In this document: one piece after another, positions 13,150 through 62,565 of the stretch
How positions within the stretch are numbered: the stretch's first letter is position 1
Layout of the letters: every line of letters begins with the position of its first letter
Source of the DNA: Planctomycetota bacterium
Lineage (GTDB): Bacteria > Planctomycetota > Phycisphaerae > Sedimentisphaerales > Anaerobacaceae
Assembly: GCA_020351025.1 (NCBI GenBank)
Contig: CP070728.1
Location: forward strand, 1,631,533-1,695,532
DNA: 64,000 bases
Direction of reading: 5' to 3'
Made by a program: the position numbers and the translations under genes
The notes under the pieces: generated by a model
Databases searched by the model: none
What the model was told of the DNA's origin: nothing
The model's input: the letters and a program-made list of their open reading frames with translations, nothing else

Positions 13150-13177
13150 TATTTAACTATCCGCTATTTACTATTCT

Positions 13178-13747
13178 TCAAAAGAACAATTCATCGTCTC
13201 TTTGAGGCACCAGAAGCTCGATATAGCCCCGTTCTAAGGTAATAATTCTACTCAGTCGGTTGATAACAACCGAATATTCATTTTCATCCGAATCCAGCAA
13301 AACAATCTTGCCGCCGTATTGCCAACCCAAGCGCCCAGCCCGAAATTTCGCTCTGCCCTCATTGGCGTAGTCCCCATCATCAAACAAAACGTAATAAAGG
13401 CGGCAATTATCCGAAAAATCACTTTTAATAATGATCTCTTCCTCCAGAACCTGCGACAAATCAGGCGTGGTTATCTGGCGAAGCGTATAGCTCTGTTCCG
13501 TTATATCAATAATAACTTCATATCTTCTATCGCTCTGGGCAGCCGCATTGCACGCCATCTGCATTGTCGAAACAAATTCCTGCGCTTGTACCTTAAAGGT
13601 GTTCTTTGTAAGTAATCCAAAAAGATTCATCGGCACCAAAAGTATAAAAAGCGAAATTATTACTATCACGATTATCAGCTCGGTCATGGTAAAAGCTGAA
13701 TTAGTCTTTGGCGTATGGCGTTCAGCGTATAGTTTGATTTTGGCCAT
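13178..13747 (-). CDS. gspH: Type II secretion minor pseudopilin H
   Basis: About 189 residues. The prepilin segment is NSA then FTMTELIIVIVIISLFILLVP, with the conserved Glu5, followed by a GspH/FimT-like beta domain. I choose the ATG at 13747, which has TTGGAG ten bases upstream; a TTG start at 13762 uses that same stretch as coding sequence. The leader (MAKIKLYAERHTPKT) is encoded by DNA that resembles the intergenic words found elsewhere in this window, discussed under findings. GspH joins the major pseudopilin to the I-J-K tip. Confidence 0.87.
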   Translation of the reverse strand: MAKIKLYAERHTPKTNSAFTMTELIIVIVIISLFILLVPMNLFGLLTKNTFKVQAQEFVSTMQMACNAAAQSDRRYEVIIDITEQSYTLRQITTPDLSQVLEEEIIIKSDFSDNCRLYYVLFDDGDYANEGRAKFRAGRLGWQYGGKIVLLDSDENEYSVVINRLSRIITLERGYIELLVPQRDDELFF

Positions 13748-13762
13748 TATTATGAACTCCAA

Positions 13763-13832
13763 TCGTTTTTAGCTTTCAGCGCATAGTTTTATTTTCACAT
13801 CCACTATACGCTATTCCTATACGCTATTTTTG
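13763..13832. repeat. Intergenic word repeat between gspG and gspH
   Basis: The 70-bp gap contains a tandem 13-mer, CTATACGCTATTC at 13804-13816 and CTATACGCTATTT at 13817-13829, and a related CAGCGCATAGTTTTATTTT at about 13778-13796. Similar words occur in the gspD-gspE and gspH-gspI gaps. Confidence 0.6.
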
Positions 13833-14276
13833 TCAGTAAGCATCAGTGCTGTACAGGTCAGCATCGTAGGCCTCGCCACCTTCCTCGCCATCAGCACCCA
13901 AGCTTTTTATTACAAATGGCTTGCCGCTTTCAGGATATTGCTCGTAGATAAAATCACGGCCCCAGCCGTCCTTCGGTATCTCTGTAGTATCTAAATAACC
14001 GCCCGGCTCGTAGTTCTCAACATCACTCGGCGGCACAACAAGAGCCTCAAGTCCCTCATCCTCGCTTAGAAATCTACCAGTGTCCATCTTAAACTGATTA
14101 ACCGCCGAATGAAGAAGCCTAAGATTAACCTTTGTGGTCGTAACCCGGGCTTTATCAGTCTGGCCCATGAAATTACGCACAAGCACAGTAGCAAGCAAAC
14201 CAAGGATAATAAGCACAGCCATAAGCTCAATCATCGTAAAACCATACCTGACCCTTTCTGTTCTTCTTTTTCCCAT
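13833..14276 (-). CDS. gspG: Type II secretion major pseudopilin G
   Basis: 147 residues, normal length. The prepilin segment is VRYG then FTMIELMAVLIILGLLATVLV, with leader of 12 residues and Glu5. The central part has the L-L-H-S-A-V-N-Q-F-K-M-D-T-G-R-F and D-G-W-G-R-D motifs, and the C-terminus has G-A-D-G-E-E-G-G-E with D residues of the calcium site. GspG polymerises into the pseudopilus that pushes substrates through the secretin. AAGGAG lies 11 bases before the ATG. Confidence 0.96.
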   Translation of the reverse strand: MGKRRTERVRYGFTMIELMAVLIILGLLATVLVRNFMGQTDKARVTTTKVNLRLLHSAVNQFKMDTGRFLSEDEGLEALVVPPSDVENYEPGGYLDTTEIPKDGWGRDFIYEQYPESGKPFVIKSLGADGEEGGEAYDADLYSTDAY

Positions 14277-14368
14277 CTGTCGTCAAACTCCTTAAAATAA
14301 TCATCCAAGTTTATTACAAGCAAGTTCTGCAACAGGATGTCCCGCGTACGATAACCACTTTCGACGAT

Positions 14369-15586
14369 TCAGAATTCCCCCGCTGAAATCTTCAAAATCG
14401 GCAATATCGTCGCATAAGCAATCACACCTATTATTGCAGCCATAATAATTATAATCAGCGGCTCAAGCGCGGCACTTAATCTTTCAATAACTATGTCTGT
14501 TGAGCCTTCGAGATTCTCGCTGATGTCTTTAAGCATCTTCTCCAGCTCACCGCTTTTTTCGCCAACAGAAACCATATGAGCAATTGCAGGGCTGATAACA
14601 CCGCTGTCTCTGAGCGGCGTAGCAATATCGGCACCGGCAAGGATTCTCTCCCTCGCCTGCTGAACAGCCTGCTTCATTAAACTATTGCCTGTAACTTCCG
14701 CCACTACTCGAAGAGACTCAGCCATCGCAAGTCCTGAACCAAGGAGAGTTGAAAGAGTGGAGGCAAATCGCGCAACAACCCGCTGTTTTATAAGCGGACC
14801 AAACAAAGGCATCGCCAGCAAAAGTTTATCACGCAAATACGCACCCCGACCGGTCCTGAGAAATCGCTTTAGACCCCAAACAATCCCAAACAATGCCGCC
14901 AAAACTACCAATAACCACCAACTGGTCAGAACGTAACTAACGTTCATCAACTGCCTGGTAATCCAGGGCAGCTCCTGCCCCGTCCTTGCAATCTGTTCAG
15001 CTATCTTCGGAATGACCATAGTTGTCAAAACCATAACCGCTACAAGGCAAAATATGAGCAGAACAATCGGGTATATCATCGCTGTTATTACTTTGGATTC
15101 GACCCGTTGACGTTTTTCCATAAAGTTTGAAATCGTCGAAAGGCTCAAACTCAAAGAGCCTGTTACCTCACCGACTCGCACCATACTTACATATATAACA
15201 TCAAAATAATCACTGTAATCACTCATCGCATCGGTAAAAGACTCCCCAGTGACGACCCTGTCACGAATATCAATAAGGGCGTTTTTGAATCGCACATCAG
15301 ACGTTTGCAAAGTGAGGACCGAAAGCGCTTCAGTCAGCTTAATACCTGAATTAAGCAGCGTGGCCATCTGCTTGGTAAAATCGATTATCTGAGACTTGCT
15401 GGCTTTGGCAAAAATCGAAAACAACGCAGCCTTACCTTCGGCAGCAGTACTCACTTCAGCAATTGAGGTAGGGTGAATACTTCGGACCCTTAGCTGTTTT
15501 CGCGCAGCATACGGGTTCTCAGCCGTAACCGTGCCTTTGACTTTCTTGCCATTTGCTACGATCGCTATATAGTTATACCTTGGCAT
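14369..15586 (-). CDS. gspF: Type II secretion inner-membrane protein F
   Basis: 405 residues with two repeated GspF domains (about residues 70-195 and 272-395) and three membrane segments near residues 170-190, 220-240 and 375-395. FTKQMATLLNSGIKLTEAL and the later F-A-S-T-L-S-T-L-L-G-S-G-L are the paired family motifs. GspF is the multipass platform protein contacted by GspE. Spacing to gspE is 13 bp. Confidence 0.96.
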   Translation of the reverse strand: MPRYNYIAIVANGKKVKGTVTAENPYAARKQLRVRSIHPTSIAEVSTAAEGKAALFSIFAKASKSQIIDFTKQMATLLNSGIKLTEALSVLTLQTSDVRFKNALIDIRDRVVTGESFTDAMSDYSDYFDVIYVSMVRVGEVTGSLSLSLSTISNFMEKRQRVESKVITAMIYPIVLLIFCLVAVMVLTTMVIPKIAEQIARTGQELPWITRQLMNVSYVLTSWWLLVVLAALFGIVWGLKRFLRTGRGAYLRDKLLLAMPLFGPLIKQRVVARFASTLSTLLGSGLAMAESLRVVAEVTGNSLMKQAVQQARERILAGADIATPLRDSGVISPAIAHMVSVGEKSGELEKMLKDISENLEGSTDIVIERLSAALEPLIIIIMAAIIGVIAYATILPILKISAGEF

Positions 15587-15599
15587 AAGCGAGCACCTG

Positions 15600-17315
15600 T
15601 TACATCACATCGGCCTGTGTTACTCTCAATACTTCAGCAATGGTAGTTATGCCTCCAAGTACTTTCCTGGCTCCATCCATTCTCAGCGTTTGCAGACCTG
15701 CGTTAAGGGCCGCTTTCTTTACTTTTCCAGCACTTTCCCTTTTGTATATCATCTCCTGTATTTCTTCGTTAATCAGCATAAGCTCATATACACCTGTTCT
15801 GCCGCGATAGCCGGTTTGAAAACACTTATCGCAGCCTGCCCCAACAGAAAACTTAGCCCCGTTTCCAGCTAAGCCAGCCGACCCGACTTCTCCCAATCCA
15901 AGTTCTCTCAATTCGTGAGGCTTCGGTTCATACGATTGTCTACAGTCCGGACAAACCTTTCGAACCAATCGCTGGGCCAATACCGCAATCAGGGACGAAC
16001 TCACCAAGTACGGCTCGACGCCTAAATCCAATAGTCGGCTCACCGTCCCCGCCGAGTCATTCGTATGCACAGTGCTGAAAACCAAATGGCCCGTCAGAGA
16101 TGATTGTATCACCATACGGGCAGTTTCGATATCTCTAACTTCGCCAACCATTATAACGTCCGGGTCCTGCCGAAGCACGTGTCGCAACGCATTGGCAAAT
16201 GTTACACCTTTCTTTGAGGCAACCTGCATCTGGCTTATGCCTTCAAGTTGATACTCAATGGGGTCTTCTATAGTCATAACATTTTTCTCTGCTGAATTTA
16301 TCCTGTTAAGGCATGCATAAAGAGTGGTGCTTTTGCCGCTTCCCGTCGGGCCCGTTACGAAGATAACACCGTGTGAGCGGTTAAGCAGCGTATCAAATTT
16401 CTTCAAATCCTCCTCCCACAAGCCCAGTTCATCGAGTGCAAACAGGCCTGTGCTTTTATCCAGCAGACGCAAGACGCTCCGCTCACCAAAGCTTGTCGGC
16501 ACGGTGCTGATGCGTAAATCAATTTCCCGCTGGCCCAGACGAACGCTGCATCTGCCATCCTGGGGCATCCGGCGCTCAGCAATATCCATACCCGCCATAA
16601 CCTTGATACGAGAGATAACTAACGGTAAGACATTCCTGTTCAAGCTAAGAACATCATATAAAATGCCGTCGATTCGGTAACGAATTTGAATCTTTGCTTC
16701 GTAAGGATGAACGTGAATATCACTTGCACGCAATTGAAGTGCACGAAAAAGAATATCATTAACCAACCTGATAACAGGGGGGCGATTGACAACATCAAGC
16801 AAATCATCTGAAGTTGTCACTTCGTCAATAAGCTGGTCAAGATTTTGCGAATCAAGCTCTTCCGCTACTTCCTCGATGACAGTTGTCCTCTGCTCATAGG
16901 CAACATCTATCACAGCGGTAATCGCGGCACGTGTAGATATTGCAGGTCTCACCGGCATGCCGGTCATCTTTGAGATATTATCCAGAGCATTCGTATCCAA
17001 TGGCTTCGACAAAACTACAGTAAGTGCACCGTCATCCTTGCCTCTTATGCCTATAAGATAATGCTGCTGAGCGTACGTTGCGGGAATAGTTTCCACGAAT
17101 TCTGCCGGCACTGCCTTCGGAGACATTTCGGCTAAAAACTCCCAGCCAAGTGCGGCAGCAAACAGTTTCAAGACCGCTTCTTCAGTAAAATACGGACAGC
17201 GAAGCAAAAGCTCATCAAGCCGCTCACGACCGCCATTTTCTTCAAGAAACCGGGCCAGCTGCTCAGCGTCAACCAGGCCTGTACGCTTAGCAATTTGTAT
17301 CAATAAATCTTTCAT
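15600..17315 (-). CDS. gspE: Type II secretion ATPase E
   Basis: 571 residues. An N-terminal GspE N1-type domain (residues 1-~150) precedes the RecA-like ATPase: Walker A GPTGSGKST near residue 325, Asp box and Walker B around RQDPDVIMVGEVRD near 388, and the four-cysteine zinc module with CPDC near 453 and CDKC near 493. It hydrolyses ATP in the cytoplasm to drive pseudopilus assembly. All catalytic motifs are intact. Confidence 0.97.
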   Translation of the reverse strand: MKDLLIQIAKRTGLVDAEQLARFLEENGGRERLDELLLRCPYFTEEAVLKLFAAALGWEFLAEMSPKAVPAEFVETIPATYAQQHYLIGIRGKDDGALTVVLSKPLDTNALDNISKMTGMPVRPAISTRAAITAVIDVAYEQRTTVIEEVAEELDSQNLDQLIDEVTTSDDLLDVVNRPPVIRLVNDILFRALQLRASDIHVHPYEAKIQIRYRIDGILYDVLSLNRNVLPLVISRIKVMAGMDIAERRMPQDGRCSVRLGQREIDLRISTVPTSFGERSVLRLLDKSTGLFALDELGLWEEDLKKFDTLLNRSHGVIFVTGPTGSGKSTTLYACLNRINSAEKNVMTIEDPIEYQLEGISQMQVASKKGVTFANALRHVLRQDPDVIMVGEVRDIETARMVIQSSLTGHLVFSTVHTNDSAGTVSRLLDLGVEPYLVSSSLIAVLAQRLVRKVCPDCRQSYEPKPHELRELGLGEVGSAGLAGNGAKFSVGAGCDKCFQTGYRGRTGVYELMLINEEIQEMIYKRESAGKVKKAALNAGLQTLRMDGARKVLGGITTIAEVLRVTQADVM

Positions 17316-17394
17316 GAAAAATAAAAACGTAAAGATTGAAACTAAAAACTATAATTCAAGGTCTCAAATCTAATTTTATATTTTACGCTTTTTA
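17316..17394. repeat. Intergenic AT-rich words between gspD and gspE
   Basis: On the minus strand the 79-bp gap begins directly at the gspD stop with AATAGTAAAAAGCGTAAAAT and continues with words such as TATAGTTTTTAGTTTCAATC. The opening resembles the start of the gspH-gspI gap (AGAATAGTAAATAGCGGATAG). No gene. Confidence 0.5.
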
Positions 17395-21114: not shown

Positions 21115-22119
21115 TCACCCTCGGCTATTCGCCCCACTCAAATTTGCATCGCTAACGTTTGCATCACTAACGTTTGCATCGCTAAAGTTTGCATCACTAA
21201 CGTTTGCATCGCTAAAGTTTGCATCGCTAAAGTTTGCATCGCTTTCAATCCCCTCATCTCCGGCTCTATTTGGGTCTTGGTTAATATCATTCAAGTCTTC
21301 GCCTAACTGCTCGAGCCTCCTCGCCTCTTGGTCAGTTATACGCATAGCTTTAAATTCGGACATAATCTTTTCCAGCTTCGCACTTTGCTCAGCGTCGTAC
21401 TCCGCATCATTTCCATCAGGCTCAAACTCTGTCTGTATAGTCTCCAGCATGGACAAAATCTCTTCTGGTGGCACCTCAATTGCCTTGCGGCTTGGCGGTA
21501 CCTTCTTGCTTAGCGGCTCTTCACTGCTTAGCGGCACCTTCCTGCTTAGCGGCTCTTCACTGCTTGTCGTATCGGAGCTAATAGGAAACGTCCCTTTAAC
21601 AAGCTCAGTTTTTTCCGGCCTCTCAGCCACAAGCTCGAATGTCCTCTTGCCGTCTCGAACAACAACAACGCCATCTTTTACCTGCTCAATAATTAAATGG
21701 CCAACCTCACTCGCTTGCCTAACCCAGCGAAACCCCTTGCCCGGCTCATCAACCAATGCCAGCGACAGTTCCGGATGTGATGCGTAGAAACTCGTGCCAA
21801 TAAGCTCGAATTTAGGCGAAACAGTCTTCGGTCTGCGCTCACTTTTGACCGTACGAGACGGCGCCGTCGGCTCCTTCGGCTTAGGCGGATTTAGATACAG
21901 CGCAAAGGCCTCTGCCTGCTTTACAAGCGGTGAGACCTGGTCTCCGCTCTTTGCTCTTTTCTGGCCTTTGGCCTTGCTAAAGCCCTCTATCACGCCTGGC
22001 GATTTGAGAAACTGCTCGGCCTGTTCATCGCGGCGAACACCAAAAACCACAGGAAAAACAAAGAAAACAGCCGCCAAAACCACCGCTATAATACTTGCTA
22101 TTCGCAAAGTTTTTATCAT
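21115..22119 (-). CDS. gspC: GspC-like protein with pentapeptide-type repeat tail
   Basis: 334 residues. One membrane segment (about residues 6-27, ASIIAVVLAAVFFVFPVVFGV), a linker, then a ~90-residue HR-type domain (FELIGTSFYASHPELSLALV, GHLIIEQVKDGVVVV) resembling the homology region of GspC/PulC that contacts the secretin. Position upstream of gspD agrees. A Pro/Ser/Glu linker with its own short repeat (SSEEPLS-K/R-KVP) and an acidic helix follow. The last ~45 residues are repeats of S-D-A-N-F/V, encoded by near-identical 15-bp DNA units. No PDZ domain is present. Confidence 0.75.
   Translation of the reverse strand: MIKTLRIASIIAVVLAAVFFVFPVVFGVRRDEQAEQFLKSPGVIEGFSKAKGQKRAKSGDQVSPLVKQAEAFALYLNPPKPKEPTAPSRTVKSERRPKTVSPKFELIGTSFYASHPELSLALVDEPGKGFRWVRQASEVGHLIIEQVKDGVVVVRDGKRTFELVAERPEKTELVKGTFPISSDTTSSEEPLSRKVPLSSEEPLSKKVPPSRKAIEVPPEEILSMLETIQTEFEPDGNDAEYDAEQSAKLEKIMSEFKAMRITDQEARRLEQLGEDLNDINQDPNRAGDEGIESDANFSDANFSDANVSDANFSDANVSDANVSDANLSGANSRG
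21146..21235. repeat. Six 15-bp tandem repeats in the gspC 3' end
   Basis: Six consecutive 15-bp units (GCATCGCTAACGTTT and variants) differ at only two positions, G/A at base 6 and C/A at base 11, with degenerate units on both sides. They encode S-D-A-N-F/V, in frame, so copy number can change without frameshift. Confidence 0.9.
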
Positions 22120-57241: not shown

Positions 57242-57414
57242 ATTCTGTCTTCTGAACTTTATATTTTTGCATTTTGATTTTTGATTTTGTCTTTGTCCTC
57301 CGCACCCTCTGCGGTTAATCTCTTTGTTTTAAATTTTGCACCATGGTTTTGCACTCTAAGCTTTAACTTTTAAATCCCACGAGATATTAAATGCAAGATA
57401 CGAGATGCGAATTC
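57242..57414. repeat. Gap made of short AT-rich word repeats
   Basis: The gap holds TTTTTGCATTTTGATTTTTG (from 57265), a phrase with CTCTGCGGTTAATCTCTTTG at 57307-57326, and CGAGATATTAAATGCAAGAT followed by ACGAGATGCGA (57380-57411). Similar words are found at 62311-62361. No gene, no clear terminator hairpin. Confidence 0.55.
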
Positions 57415-61114: not shown

Positions 61115-61540
61115 TACCTATTCCCTCCGGAAAATATCTCTGTCATAACTCTTCTCATCACCTTTTAATAGCCCTTTTTACTTCTATACGGCCTGGCAGA
61201 CCTGCCGTTACTGGCTCCGCCCCCGTCAAAGAAACACAAATCTGTATTGCACCATTATACCAAATTCACATTCCCCAATTCAACCTTTTTAGGGTTACGC
61301 CGTTTATTTAGCCCCCTGCATCGTAGGGGGTTGTATTTAGCCCCGTACTTTGGGCGGGGGCATCCATTCATTGTAAGACGGACAAAACGCCCGCTTTATT
61401 GCACAAAAGCCAAATTATTATCGGCCACTCCACACTAAACGCTATACGCCACTGCTGTCTTGACTCTGGCGTCTTGTGTCTTTCCTATACCGTACTCCCA
61501 AAGCTTTCTTGGCAAATGCCAATATTTACCTCCAATTTCC
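61115..61540. other. Intergenic region with two G/C hairpins and word repeats
   Basis: No gene. Two neighbouring hairpins share the word TTTAGCCCC: the first has arms CCCCCT/AGGGGG (61312-61330), the second GCCCC paired with a G run (61340-61361). At 61433-61449 CACTAAACGCTATACGC recalls the words in the gspG-gspH gap. The remainder has no feature I can name. Confidence 0.4.
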
Positions 61541-62125: not shown

Positions 62126-62565
62126 CCGCCACCTGATTCTCTGTCCCCCACGAAAACCTCCCCGCTTTGCCTTACCACAGAGAACCTAATCGTAAATCGT
62201 AAATTGATATGCCCCGAATCCCCGCGCAGGTGGAAACCCAGACGTCGTTTCAACCAATTATATCGCAATATAAGTCTCTCCATTCTGGATTGCAGTGATC
62301 AACCAAACTCATTTTTGCATTTTAATCTGTAATTTTGCTCTTTGATTTTTAATATTTGATATGCTTCCCCTGCCCTCTTCATTGTAGAAATCCTGTTCAG
62401 CTTGCCCTGAGCCAGGCCAAAGGAAAACAACTCATCCCGCATCCCCCATGTCTTTACCGAGGTTCCGCCTCAATTTTGTTAATCTGGACAATCCCGCCCT
62501 TGCCCATTTGAACACTTACGCCAAATTTGACCTCGTTATCTTTTATCTCCAAAACAAAATTCCCT
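62126..62565. repeat. Intergenic region rich in degenerate dispersed repeats
   Basis: There is no gene. Visible are TCGTAAATCGTAAATTG (from about 62189), a stretch ATTTTTGCATTTTAATCTGT (62311-62330) that continues with TTTGATTTTTAATATTTG, and GTTCAGCTTGCCCTGAGCC (62394-62412). Each resembles short repeated words in other gaps of the window or dispersed repeats I remember from other genomes. Confidence 0.45.

Follow-up and report, generated by a model that had tools for sequence, protein, structure and literature searches.

Seven-base words in the gene spacers of a planctomycete genome as probable arms, or leftovers of arms, of intervening-sequence-like S23 elements

Short AT-rich words occupy several gene spacers in a 64,000-nucleotide stretch of a Planctomycetota genome (contig CP070728.1, G000:C1:1631533-1695532; here called the window), among them spacers of a gsp secretion operon on the minus strand, and the question is where such words come from. 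The source genome, G000, comprises 2.27 Mb in one contig and is 91% complete; the gsp gene names were taken from a first-pass annotation of the sequence or assigned by eye. This annotation had described the words as small, imperfect tandem units proliferating in non-coding DNA. Its observation could be partly confirmed, and its interpretation was partly supported. According to our analysis, the seven-base words are probably the inverted-repeat arms, or leftovers of the arms, of elements in gene spacers that resemble the intervening sequences (IVS) of ribosomal RNA (rRNA) genes and encode S23, the 23S-rRNA-intervening-sequence protein (PF05635).

Counts in the whole genome and, for coding versus non-coding DNA, in a sample of it, the check that had been proposed for the words, revealed an excess that was not due to base composition. 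The pattern TAGCGNNTAGCGNNTAG occurred 14 times in G000 and its reversed version not at all, and AATAGCGTATAG was found in 6 copies versus 0 for the reversed control. The repeats were further quantified in an 864-kb sample of the genome, consisting of the window and 40 stretches of 20 kb (760 genes, 86% coding). TAGCG-type arrays were present 21 times in gaps, which make up about 14% of the sample, versus 11 times in called coding sequences (CDS). In the gaps, 250 12-mers occurred three times, whereas five simulations with a third-order Markov model gave 73 on average. Exact 10-mers alone gave little excess in the gaps over a third-order Markov model, and therefore matches at fixed distances (lags) had to be analyzed. 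The near-tandem repeats of the gaps exceeded the simulations most at lags of 7, 10, 14, 20, and 21, and to a smaller degree at other lags, e.g. 13, 15, and 33. The densities of lag-7 arrays per Mb in gaps, CDS, and shuffled gaps were 86, 12, and 17 for G000, 157, 3, and 16 for G001, and 38, 3, and 13 for G016. For the sister species G050 and G004, most contigs of which had been chosen for TAGCG matches, the respective values were 976, 63, and 0 and 1055, 88, and 44. Tandem seven-base units in intergenic DNA, as in arrays of short tandemly repeated repetitive sequences (STRR) or simple sequence repeats (SSR), were thus found, and the description as small imperfect tandem units of non-coding DNA was borne out. 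Short gaps between co-directional genes were enriched for lag 7 in G050 (25 of 74) and in G004 (24 of 64, about 3 expected), again on contigs chosen mostly for TAGCG matches; for G001 and G016 the enrichment was not clear.

The arrays turned out to flank S23 genes. PF05635 was detected in 84 of 89 genomes from the family of G000, often in several copies (397 in total), and in none of 14 control genomes. S23 loci were sampled by rank in the PF05635 list, independently of the words (30 loci and 40 more). Together with some genes from other loci, 81 unique S23 genes were scored; the first batch had 43 genes, 3 of which were excluded because of edges or Ns. Seven of the 81 had been chosen through TAGCG words (L168, L169, L200, L209, L250, L266, and L270; five outside the family), and 74 were word-independent. 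The controls were 459 genes of 300–700 bp; for comparison with the word-independent genes, inverted repeats were counted on 456 of them after removal of three that overlapped S23. The match at lag 7 was 0.434 upstream and 0.451 downstream of the 81 S23 genes (0.431 and 0.452 for the word-independent genes), versus 0.277 and 0.287 for the controls. Lag 14 was likewise raised, and the other lags from 3 to 15 were near the control values. Lag 7 was the best lag in 58 of 81 upstream and 57 of 81 downstream windows of S23 genes (51 and 52 of the 74 word-independent genes), versus 70 and 75 of 459 control windows. With a complementarity score of at least 14 as threshold, the two flanks were inverted repeats of one another in 45 of 81 cases and direct repeats in 4, whereas 9 and 14 were counted for the 459 controls. 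For the word-independent genes the values were 41 and 3 of 74, versus 7 inverted pairs among the 456 S23-free controls. The later batch alone yielded 24 inverted and 2 direct pairs among 41, with scores above 13. Stems were also present in two predicted folds, with z-scores of -2.6 and -3.6.

A full element has a length of about 450–500 bp and consists of a left arm, the S23 gene (about 120 amino acids, a four-helix bundle; Pfam E-value 8e-42 at L309), and an inverted right arm. The left arm typically contains 4–5 imperfect heptads, and its end is separated from the S23 domain by a median of 20 bases; the right arm begins a median of 4 bases past the stop codon, with its heptads inverted. The median array length was 4.6 heptads, and 100 of 164 scored arrays had 4 or 5. 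Variation between heptads was concentrated in three of the seven columns beyond the expectation for random substitution (variance 0.029 vs. 0.018). A single arm has less diagnostic value than a pair, because the single-arm score was reached not only by 164 of 235 S23 flanks but also by 115 of 974 control windows. The neighbors of S23 were varied and included gsp genes, pairs of tRNA genes (L319, L326, and L329, with the element between two tRNA genes on the S23 strand), plasmid transfer genes, and, by eye, dnaJ, hypC, and aconitase genes. At L353 (G069), two S23 genes lie close together at a site that resembles hypC by eye. A strict rule that S23 lies in sense orientation within operons was discarded: among the 81 genes, both neighbors could be called at 68 loci and were on the S23 strand at 48 of these, versus 141 of 230 controls, and in the plasmid and viral set described below 10 genes were sense and 14 antisense to both neighbors.

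Could the words instead be neutral microsatellites, generated by polymerase slippage that favors seven-base units in non-coding DNA? A heptamer excess is a known bacterial trend, for which the idea of a polymerase footprint is quoted in the relevant part of PMC4692102, and some arms are long and very regular, e.g. at L337 (about 15 near-identical units) and L375. In addition, the words differ at the same site between sister species. Eight stretches in which G050 and G004 overlap could be aligned (89–98% identity), and three spacers kept the array or hairpin while the words had changed outright, so that the proposed comparison of gap contents between close relatives gave retained sites with different words. 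However, slippage creates direct repeats, yet among the matches listed in a scan with a 24-base TAGCG pattern (118 loci, with many phyla among the 80 titled matches) a convergent partner was found within 900 bp at 42 loci, a divergent partner at 2, and both at none. Array pairs on opposite strands no more than 150 bp apart were convergent in 9 of 9 cases in the samples of G050, G004, and G000. Moreover, slippage does not provide a two-sided tie to one gene family. One of the three spacers mentioned contains a gene between the arms in G004 (L169) and a bare TAGCG array in G050 (L155), and the gene encodes S23 (G004:C14:6156-6467, E-value 1.7e-38). S23 was found within 170 bp of a TAGCG array in 4 of the 118 loci among the matches listed. 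The pattern TAGCGNNTAGCGNNTAG was present in 44 of the 89 family genomes, with 116 copies in G050, 38 in its congener G004, and a total of 512 versus 108 for the reversed pattern. The density of TAGCG words tracked that of S23 genes across the 89 genomes (rho 0.33, p 0.0014; 0.07 for the reversed control) and across 45 genus means (0.42, p 0.004). Slippage as the sole cause is judged unlikely. The view that the units multiply by themselves has to be modified accordingly: slippage must contribute, but the convergent pairs enclosing S23 are better explained as arms of an element. Since such pairs were observed in relatives and also on plasmids of cyanobacteria and on viral contigs, the words are better read as arms or arm leftovers. 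A telomere-like 3′ extension of break ends, which the polarity of the words had suggested, was dropped after S23 had been found between the arms.

Copies at different sites allow one to ask whether gene and arms belong together. L337 (G050) and L339 (G003) share 85.5% nucleotide identity over gene and arms, and no similarity of the flanking proteins was detected. For L314/L345 and L320/L344, which stem from different genera, the identity over gene and arms was 83% and 78%, respectively, and no similarity of the flanks was detectable. Other S23 pairs share the site across genera (by eye dnaJ, hypC, and others), and thus both vertically kept old sites and copies at unrelated sites exist. Orthologous sites without S23 were sought with S23 flanks as probes in stretches of five genomes. 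Twelve distinct sites were obtained: four had a solo array (L007 in G000; L155, L158, and L162 in G050), one had a weak array (L024), and seven were empty. L007 carries AATAGCGTACAGCGTATAGCGGGTAGCG, and S23 is present at this site in G050, G086, and G007. One site was found in three states: three genera have S23 there, G050 has an array, and in G000 the site is empty. The solo arrays had p-values from 0.010 to 0.053 in comparison with random stretches of the same genome.

These sites also bear on the possibility that heptad arrays of another origin serve as landing sites into which S23 genes insert. Solo arrays are common (the G050 gaps contain 54 lag-7 arrays within 55 kb, again on contigs picked mostly for TAGCG), some sites recur across genera, and one pair of loci (L311/L335) has the gene in common, not the arms. 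Insertion into a direct array would, however, leave flanks of the same direction, contrary to the predominantly inverted flanks of the word-independent genes. Furthermore, some copies at unrelated sites carried their arms along, and most of the S23-less sites were empty, and landing sites thus appear distinctly unlikely.

The gsp operons of relatives were inspected as well. In several genera the gspD-E gap contains head-to-head heptad arrays, often enclosing an insert, and the words differ (NNNTAGT in G003, NNTAGCG in G004, TTGAT words in G005, and ATTGCGT in G018). The gspE-F spacer of G009 contains an S23-like gene (TIGR02436, E-value 4e-21), arrays were recognized by eye in this spacer in G003, G004, G011, G012, G020, and G022, and nothing was found there in G000 and G001. 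In G020, S23 follows directly after the gspF stop codon, with heptads of the AGGGTAT type on both sides; the contig ends there, so that gspG is not visible beyond. Because the words often extend to a position immediately upstream of a start codon (gspH, gspI, and many other loci), they might act in the leader of the following gene and regulate its translation or mRNA stability, as was proposed by MacGregor in 2015 for the TAACTGA repeats of Beggiatoaceae (PMC4679880, in the sections on these repeats). Regulation of this kind is very unlikely to be the general explanation, because relatives differ at the same gene in the words and even in their presence, and no word shared per function was seen.

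S23 genes with heptad flanks were not restricted to the family. When plasmids were searched by tblastn with a single S23 protein as query, 40 records were obtained, mostly from Nostoc, Calothrix, and their kin. At 15 plasmid loci, inverted scores of at least 14 were found in 9 cases and direct ones in 3, and lag 7 was the peak. Lag 7 was again the peak in the S23 flanks of viral contigs, where the flanks were inverted in 17 and direct in 4 of 22 loci (12 and 3 of 17 when near-identical contigs were counted once). The arm heptads outside the family included GGGAACA, GGGAAAA, GTAGGGT, and GTCAGGA. In two cyanobacteria S23 is located between cas6 and cas4, and a third has it between cas10 and a cmr3-like gene. 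Eighteen cases within cas loci had been noticed in 2013, and arrays are not mentioned in the pertinent part of that paper (PMC3936711). S23 might be an accessory part of CRISPR, retroelement, or host systems, with the arrays as private operators and no mobility. The location between cas genes and the resemblance of S23 to Avd, the accessory protein of diversity-generating retroelements (DGRs), are in line with such a role. We regard it as unlikely, because S23 has neighbors of so many kinds and no reverse transcriptase was found in more than half of the S23-positive genomes.

The resemblance to Avd (see also PMC10053308) shows in matches of S23 to bAvd (E-value 2e-9) and DivGenRetAVD (E-value 1e-8), both below the curated cut-off. 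Unlike in DGRs, many S23-positive genomes gave no match to a reverse transcriptase: PF00078 was detected in 38 of 89 genomes and was not found in G000, in G050, or in 47 of the 84 S23-positive genomes, which are incomplete assemblies. Repetitive extragenic palindromic (REP) sequences and bacterial interspersed mosaic elements (BIMEs) are small palindromic extragenic repeats with many copies, which occur with REP-associated tyrosine (RAYT, Y1) transposases. The words share the small size, the palindromic and extragenic nature, and the copy number, but differ by the period of seven, by S23 inside, by the lack of a Y1 match in G000, and by Y1 tallies that do not follow the TAGCG density. PF01797 (Y1) was present in 77 of 89 genomes, with zero matches in G000 and in G018, which has 7 S23 genes; the correlation of Y1 was 0.04 (rho) with TAGCG and 0.29 (p 0.006) with S23. 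Neither reverse transcriptase nor Y1 transposase was found in 8 S23-positive, incomplete genomes. Both enzymes were rejected as partners of the words, as their tallies do not follow them.

The closest known counterparts are the IVS of 23S rRNA genes, in which inverted repeats likewise enclose S23. The IVS of Coxiella burnetii has, in addition, two or three tandem GACAGAT heptamers and a degenerate one right before S23; their number varies between strains, the stem comprises 28 bp, and excision by RNase III was obtained in vitro (PMC4990558, sections on the IVS). Bacteria of the Candidate Phyla Radiation (CPR) have IVP genes in inserts of 16S and 23S rRNA genes, according to the relevant part of PMC11270868. 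Unlike these, the present elements are located in spacers of protein and tRNA genes, often several per genome, and their words are copy-specific. Because no rRNA match was obtained with Rfam at 73 S23 loci (L305-L374, L050, L058, and L169), they are called IVS-like and not rRNA IVS; they encode S23, which the gaps of the window do not. Searches of the open PMC literature revealed no S23 elements with heptad arms outside rRNA among the listed papers. We hypothesize that the element moves, or moved, as a unit of gene and arms, that one or two arms would stay behind when the gene is lost, and that slippage would then reshape the words. The arms may pair in the RNA and form a stem that encloses the S23 gene, and RNase III might trim this stem from transcripts, by analogy to the rRNA IVS of Coxiella in vitro. 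Such trimming would make insertions inside operons like gsp tolerable.

Several points weigh against the interpretation of the words as arms of S23 elements. Of the 74 word-independent S23 genes, 33 stayed below the inverted-repeat threshold, and the correlation between TAGCG words and S23 is shared with genome size. The genes at L311 and L335 are 88% identical at unrelated sites and their arms differ, so that the arms either do not always accompany the gene or diverge rapidly. Only two of the four solo arrays had p-values below 0.02 (L007 and L158), and the others were called by eye. Among the loci compared here, a target duplication could not be established, and movement of an element was not observed. 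RNase III processing is borrowed from the rRNA IVS, and the authors of the Coxiella study consider S23 probably not expressed in that organism (PMC4990558, same sections). For nine orthologous elements at the dnaJ-like site, co-evolution of the arms was tried as an indication of pairing and gave no clear signal; selection for pairing is not supported, because the pairing score was nearly the same within (16.6) and between elements (15.3). G001 has lag-7 arrays at the density given above and no S23 was found in it, and the gene calls were made with a home-made caller. In G000 itself, the co-directional short gaps were barely enriched (13 of 165 with hairpins, 12 of 165 with lag-7 arrays, 7.9 expected), and the gspD-E gap was not significantly heptadic. 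The weak signal of G000 is compatible with its single remaining S23 copy, a fit that proves nothing.

Heptamer repeats have been reported from several other groups. The STRR of cyanobacteria are intergenic heptanucleotide repeats. They and the GGGAATC-type heptamers share with the present words intergenic, imperfect arrays with a preference for four units, variability of length and sequence among relatives, and a mention of inverted repeats; heptanucleotides of Calothrix are cited, and GGGAATC or GGGGAYT heptamers of Xanthomonas and Nostoc described, in PMC4692102. A link to S23 is not mentioned in the corresponding passages of that paper, whereas such arrays flank the S23 genes of cyanobacterial plasmids in our analysis. 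The TAACTGA repeats of Beggiatoaceae, cyanobacteria, and Bacteroidetes are also direct heptamers near start codons with a patchy distribution across phyla, but they were interpreted as candidate translational regulators, and the pertinent text does not contain the terms S23 or four helix (PMC4679880). We tentatively propose, at less than even odds, that S23 and heptad arms form a minimal and widespread class of mobile elements in the gene spacers of many phyla, with no recognized transposase, which might be the common source of the separately reported heptamer repeats of cyanobacteria, Xanthomonas, Beggiatoaceae, and others. The solved S23 homologues 2gsc and 2rld are each composed of five chains, and the title of Lin 2006, as cited in the reference list of PMC3936711, speaks of five four-helix bundles. 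It is a guess that an S23 pentamer reads the arms with one heptad per subunit; one heptad per subunit would account for a period of exactly seven in spite of freely drifting letters. There is no agreed cause for the heptamer repeats that have repeatedly been described from bacterial spacers, and no function has been known for S23 since its discovery in rRNA inserts. Their tie offers a cause that is testable in ordinary cyanobacteria, and it suggests that a very small mobile element, annotated merely as "four helix bundle protein", has shaped spacers and operon gaps in several phyla.

How do the gaps of the window fit into this picture? AATAG- and TAGCG-type words on the minus strand had been announced for three gsp gaps. 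They were located in gspG-H and gspH-I, whereas gspD-E contains an AT-rich imperfect palindrome instead. The gspG-H gap (13763-13832) has a left arm, AATAGCGTATAGGAATAGCGTATAG (13804..13828, minus strand), which is an exact 13-bp tandem, and an inverted right half, ACTATGCGCTGAAAGCTAAAAACGA (13763..13787, minus strand), and the two are base-paired in the predicted fold. The RNA folding z-score was -4.64, equaled by 1 of 200 shuffles, the inverted-repeat p-value was 0.015, and the lag-7 p-value was 0.33. The coding start of gspH contains the heptad string CTATACG CTGAACG CCATACG CCAAAGA CTAA (13701..13732, minus strand; lag-7 p 0.032 for 13690-13762). The gspH-I spacer (13150..13177, minus strand) consists of the single array AATAGTA AATAGCG GATAG; its minus-strand sequence is AATAGTAAATAGCGGATAG, its lag-7 p-value was 0.098, and its folding z-score of -2.6 was equaled by 11 of 200 shuffles. 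The gspD-E palindrome (AAAAAGCGTAAAAT ... ATCTTTACGTTTTT; 17316..17394, minus strand) is read as a decayed hairpin. Neither AATAG nor TAGCG occurs on the minus strand of this gap, and its plus strand lacks CTATACG; it had a folding z-score of -2.94 (equaled by 1 of 200 shuffles), an inverted-repeat p-value of 0.09, and a lag-7 p-value of 0.21. The words of gspG-H and gspH-I would be arm leftovers of S23 elements, and they are the surest cases among the gaps of the window; the gspD-E hairpin may be one too and is the least sure. The gspE-F spacer (15587..15599, minus strand) has 13 bp and is empty in G000.

Related words had also been reported to fill three other gaps, and such words were found in all three. 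The gap 57242..57414 contains GATTTTT heptads, TTTTGCAC words spaced by 13 bases, ACGAGAT-like words, and GATTTTTGATTTT at 57263-57289 (lag-7 p 0.008). In 61431-61493 (lag-7 p 0.010, inverted-repeat p 0.085), CTAAACGCTATACGCC at 61435..61450 represents two TAGCG-type heptads on the minus strand. The gap 62187..62361 includes 2.4 copies of AATCGTA (62188-62204) and TTTGATA words (lag-7 p 0.004). The inverted-repeat alignment test was run on gspD-E, gspG-H, the gspH start, and 61431-61493, and a p-value below 0.05 resulted for gspG-H alone. Rfam yielded zero matches within the window, and no S23 match was obtained among its open reading frames (ORFs) of at least 60 amino acids at an E-value of 1e-5; the one S23 gene of G000 is located outside the window.

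Other repeats were noticed along the way. The S23 reading does not yet account for the gspD-E hairpin, the 13-bp words, the ten-base GCAAAA and ATTGGGTTTG arrays, and other text-like strings of the window. The GCAAAA repeat is a dispersed element of about 120 bp in the G000 sample with GCAAAA/GCCAAA words every 10–11 bases in a similar order; it is not heptadic, is not tied to S23, and perhaps represents phased A-tracts (L044 11539-11650, L024 10034-10120, L028 16437-16560, L038 6500-6600, L031 8885, L032 15305, and L021 13304). Ten-base arrays of ATTGGGTTTG / CAAACCCAAT are common to G000 and G001 (L014 18270, L027 15821, L035 6089, and several G001 loci). Small dispersed repeats (TGTCATTGCGA..GAAGCAATCT and ATTCCTGCTTCCGCAGGAATGACA) are located in the middle of some word hairpins (L077, L083, L054, and others). 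Insertions of 24 bp of the CCTTCGACTTCGCTCAGGGCAGGA type, a multiple of three, were present in called CDS of one of the two sister species (at L147 14121 and L150 14619 of G050, compared with G004). Lastly, the ORF 21115-22119 of the window contains a 15-bp unit repeated 6.7 times and a 36-bp unit repeated about twice (21143-21243 and 21490-21565).

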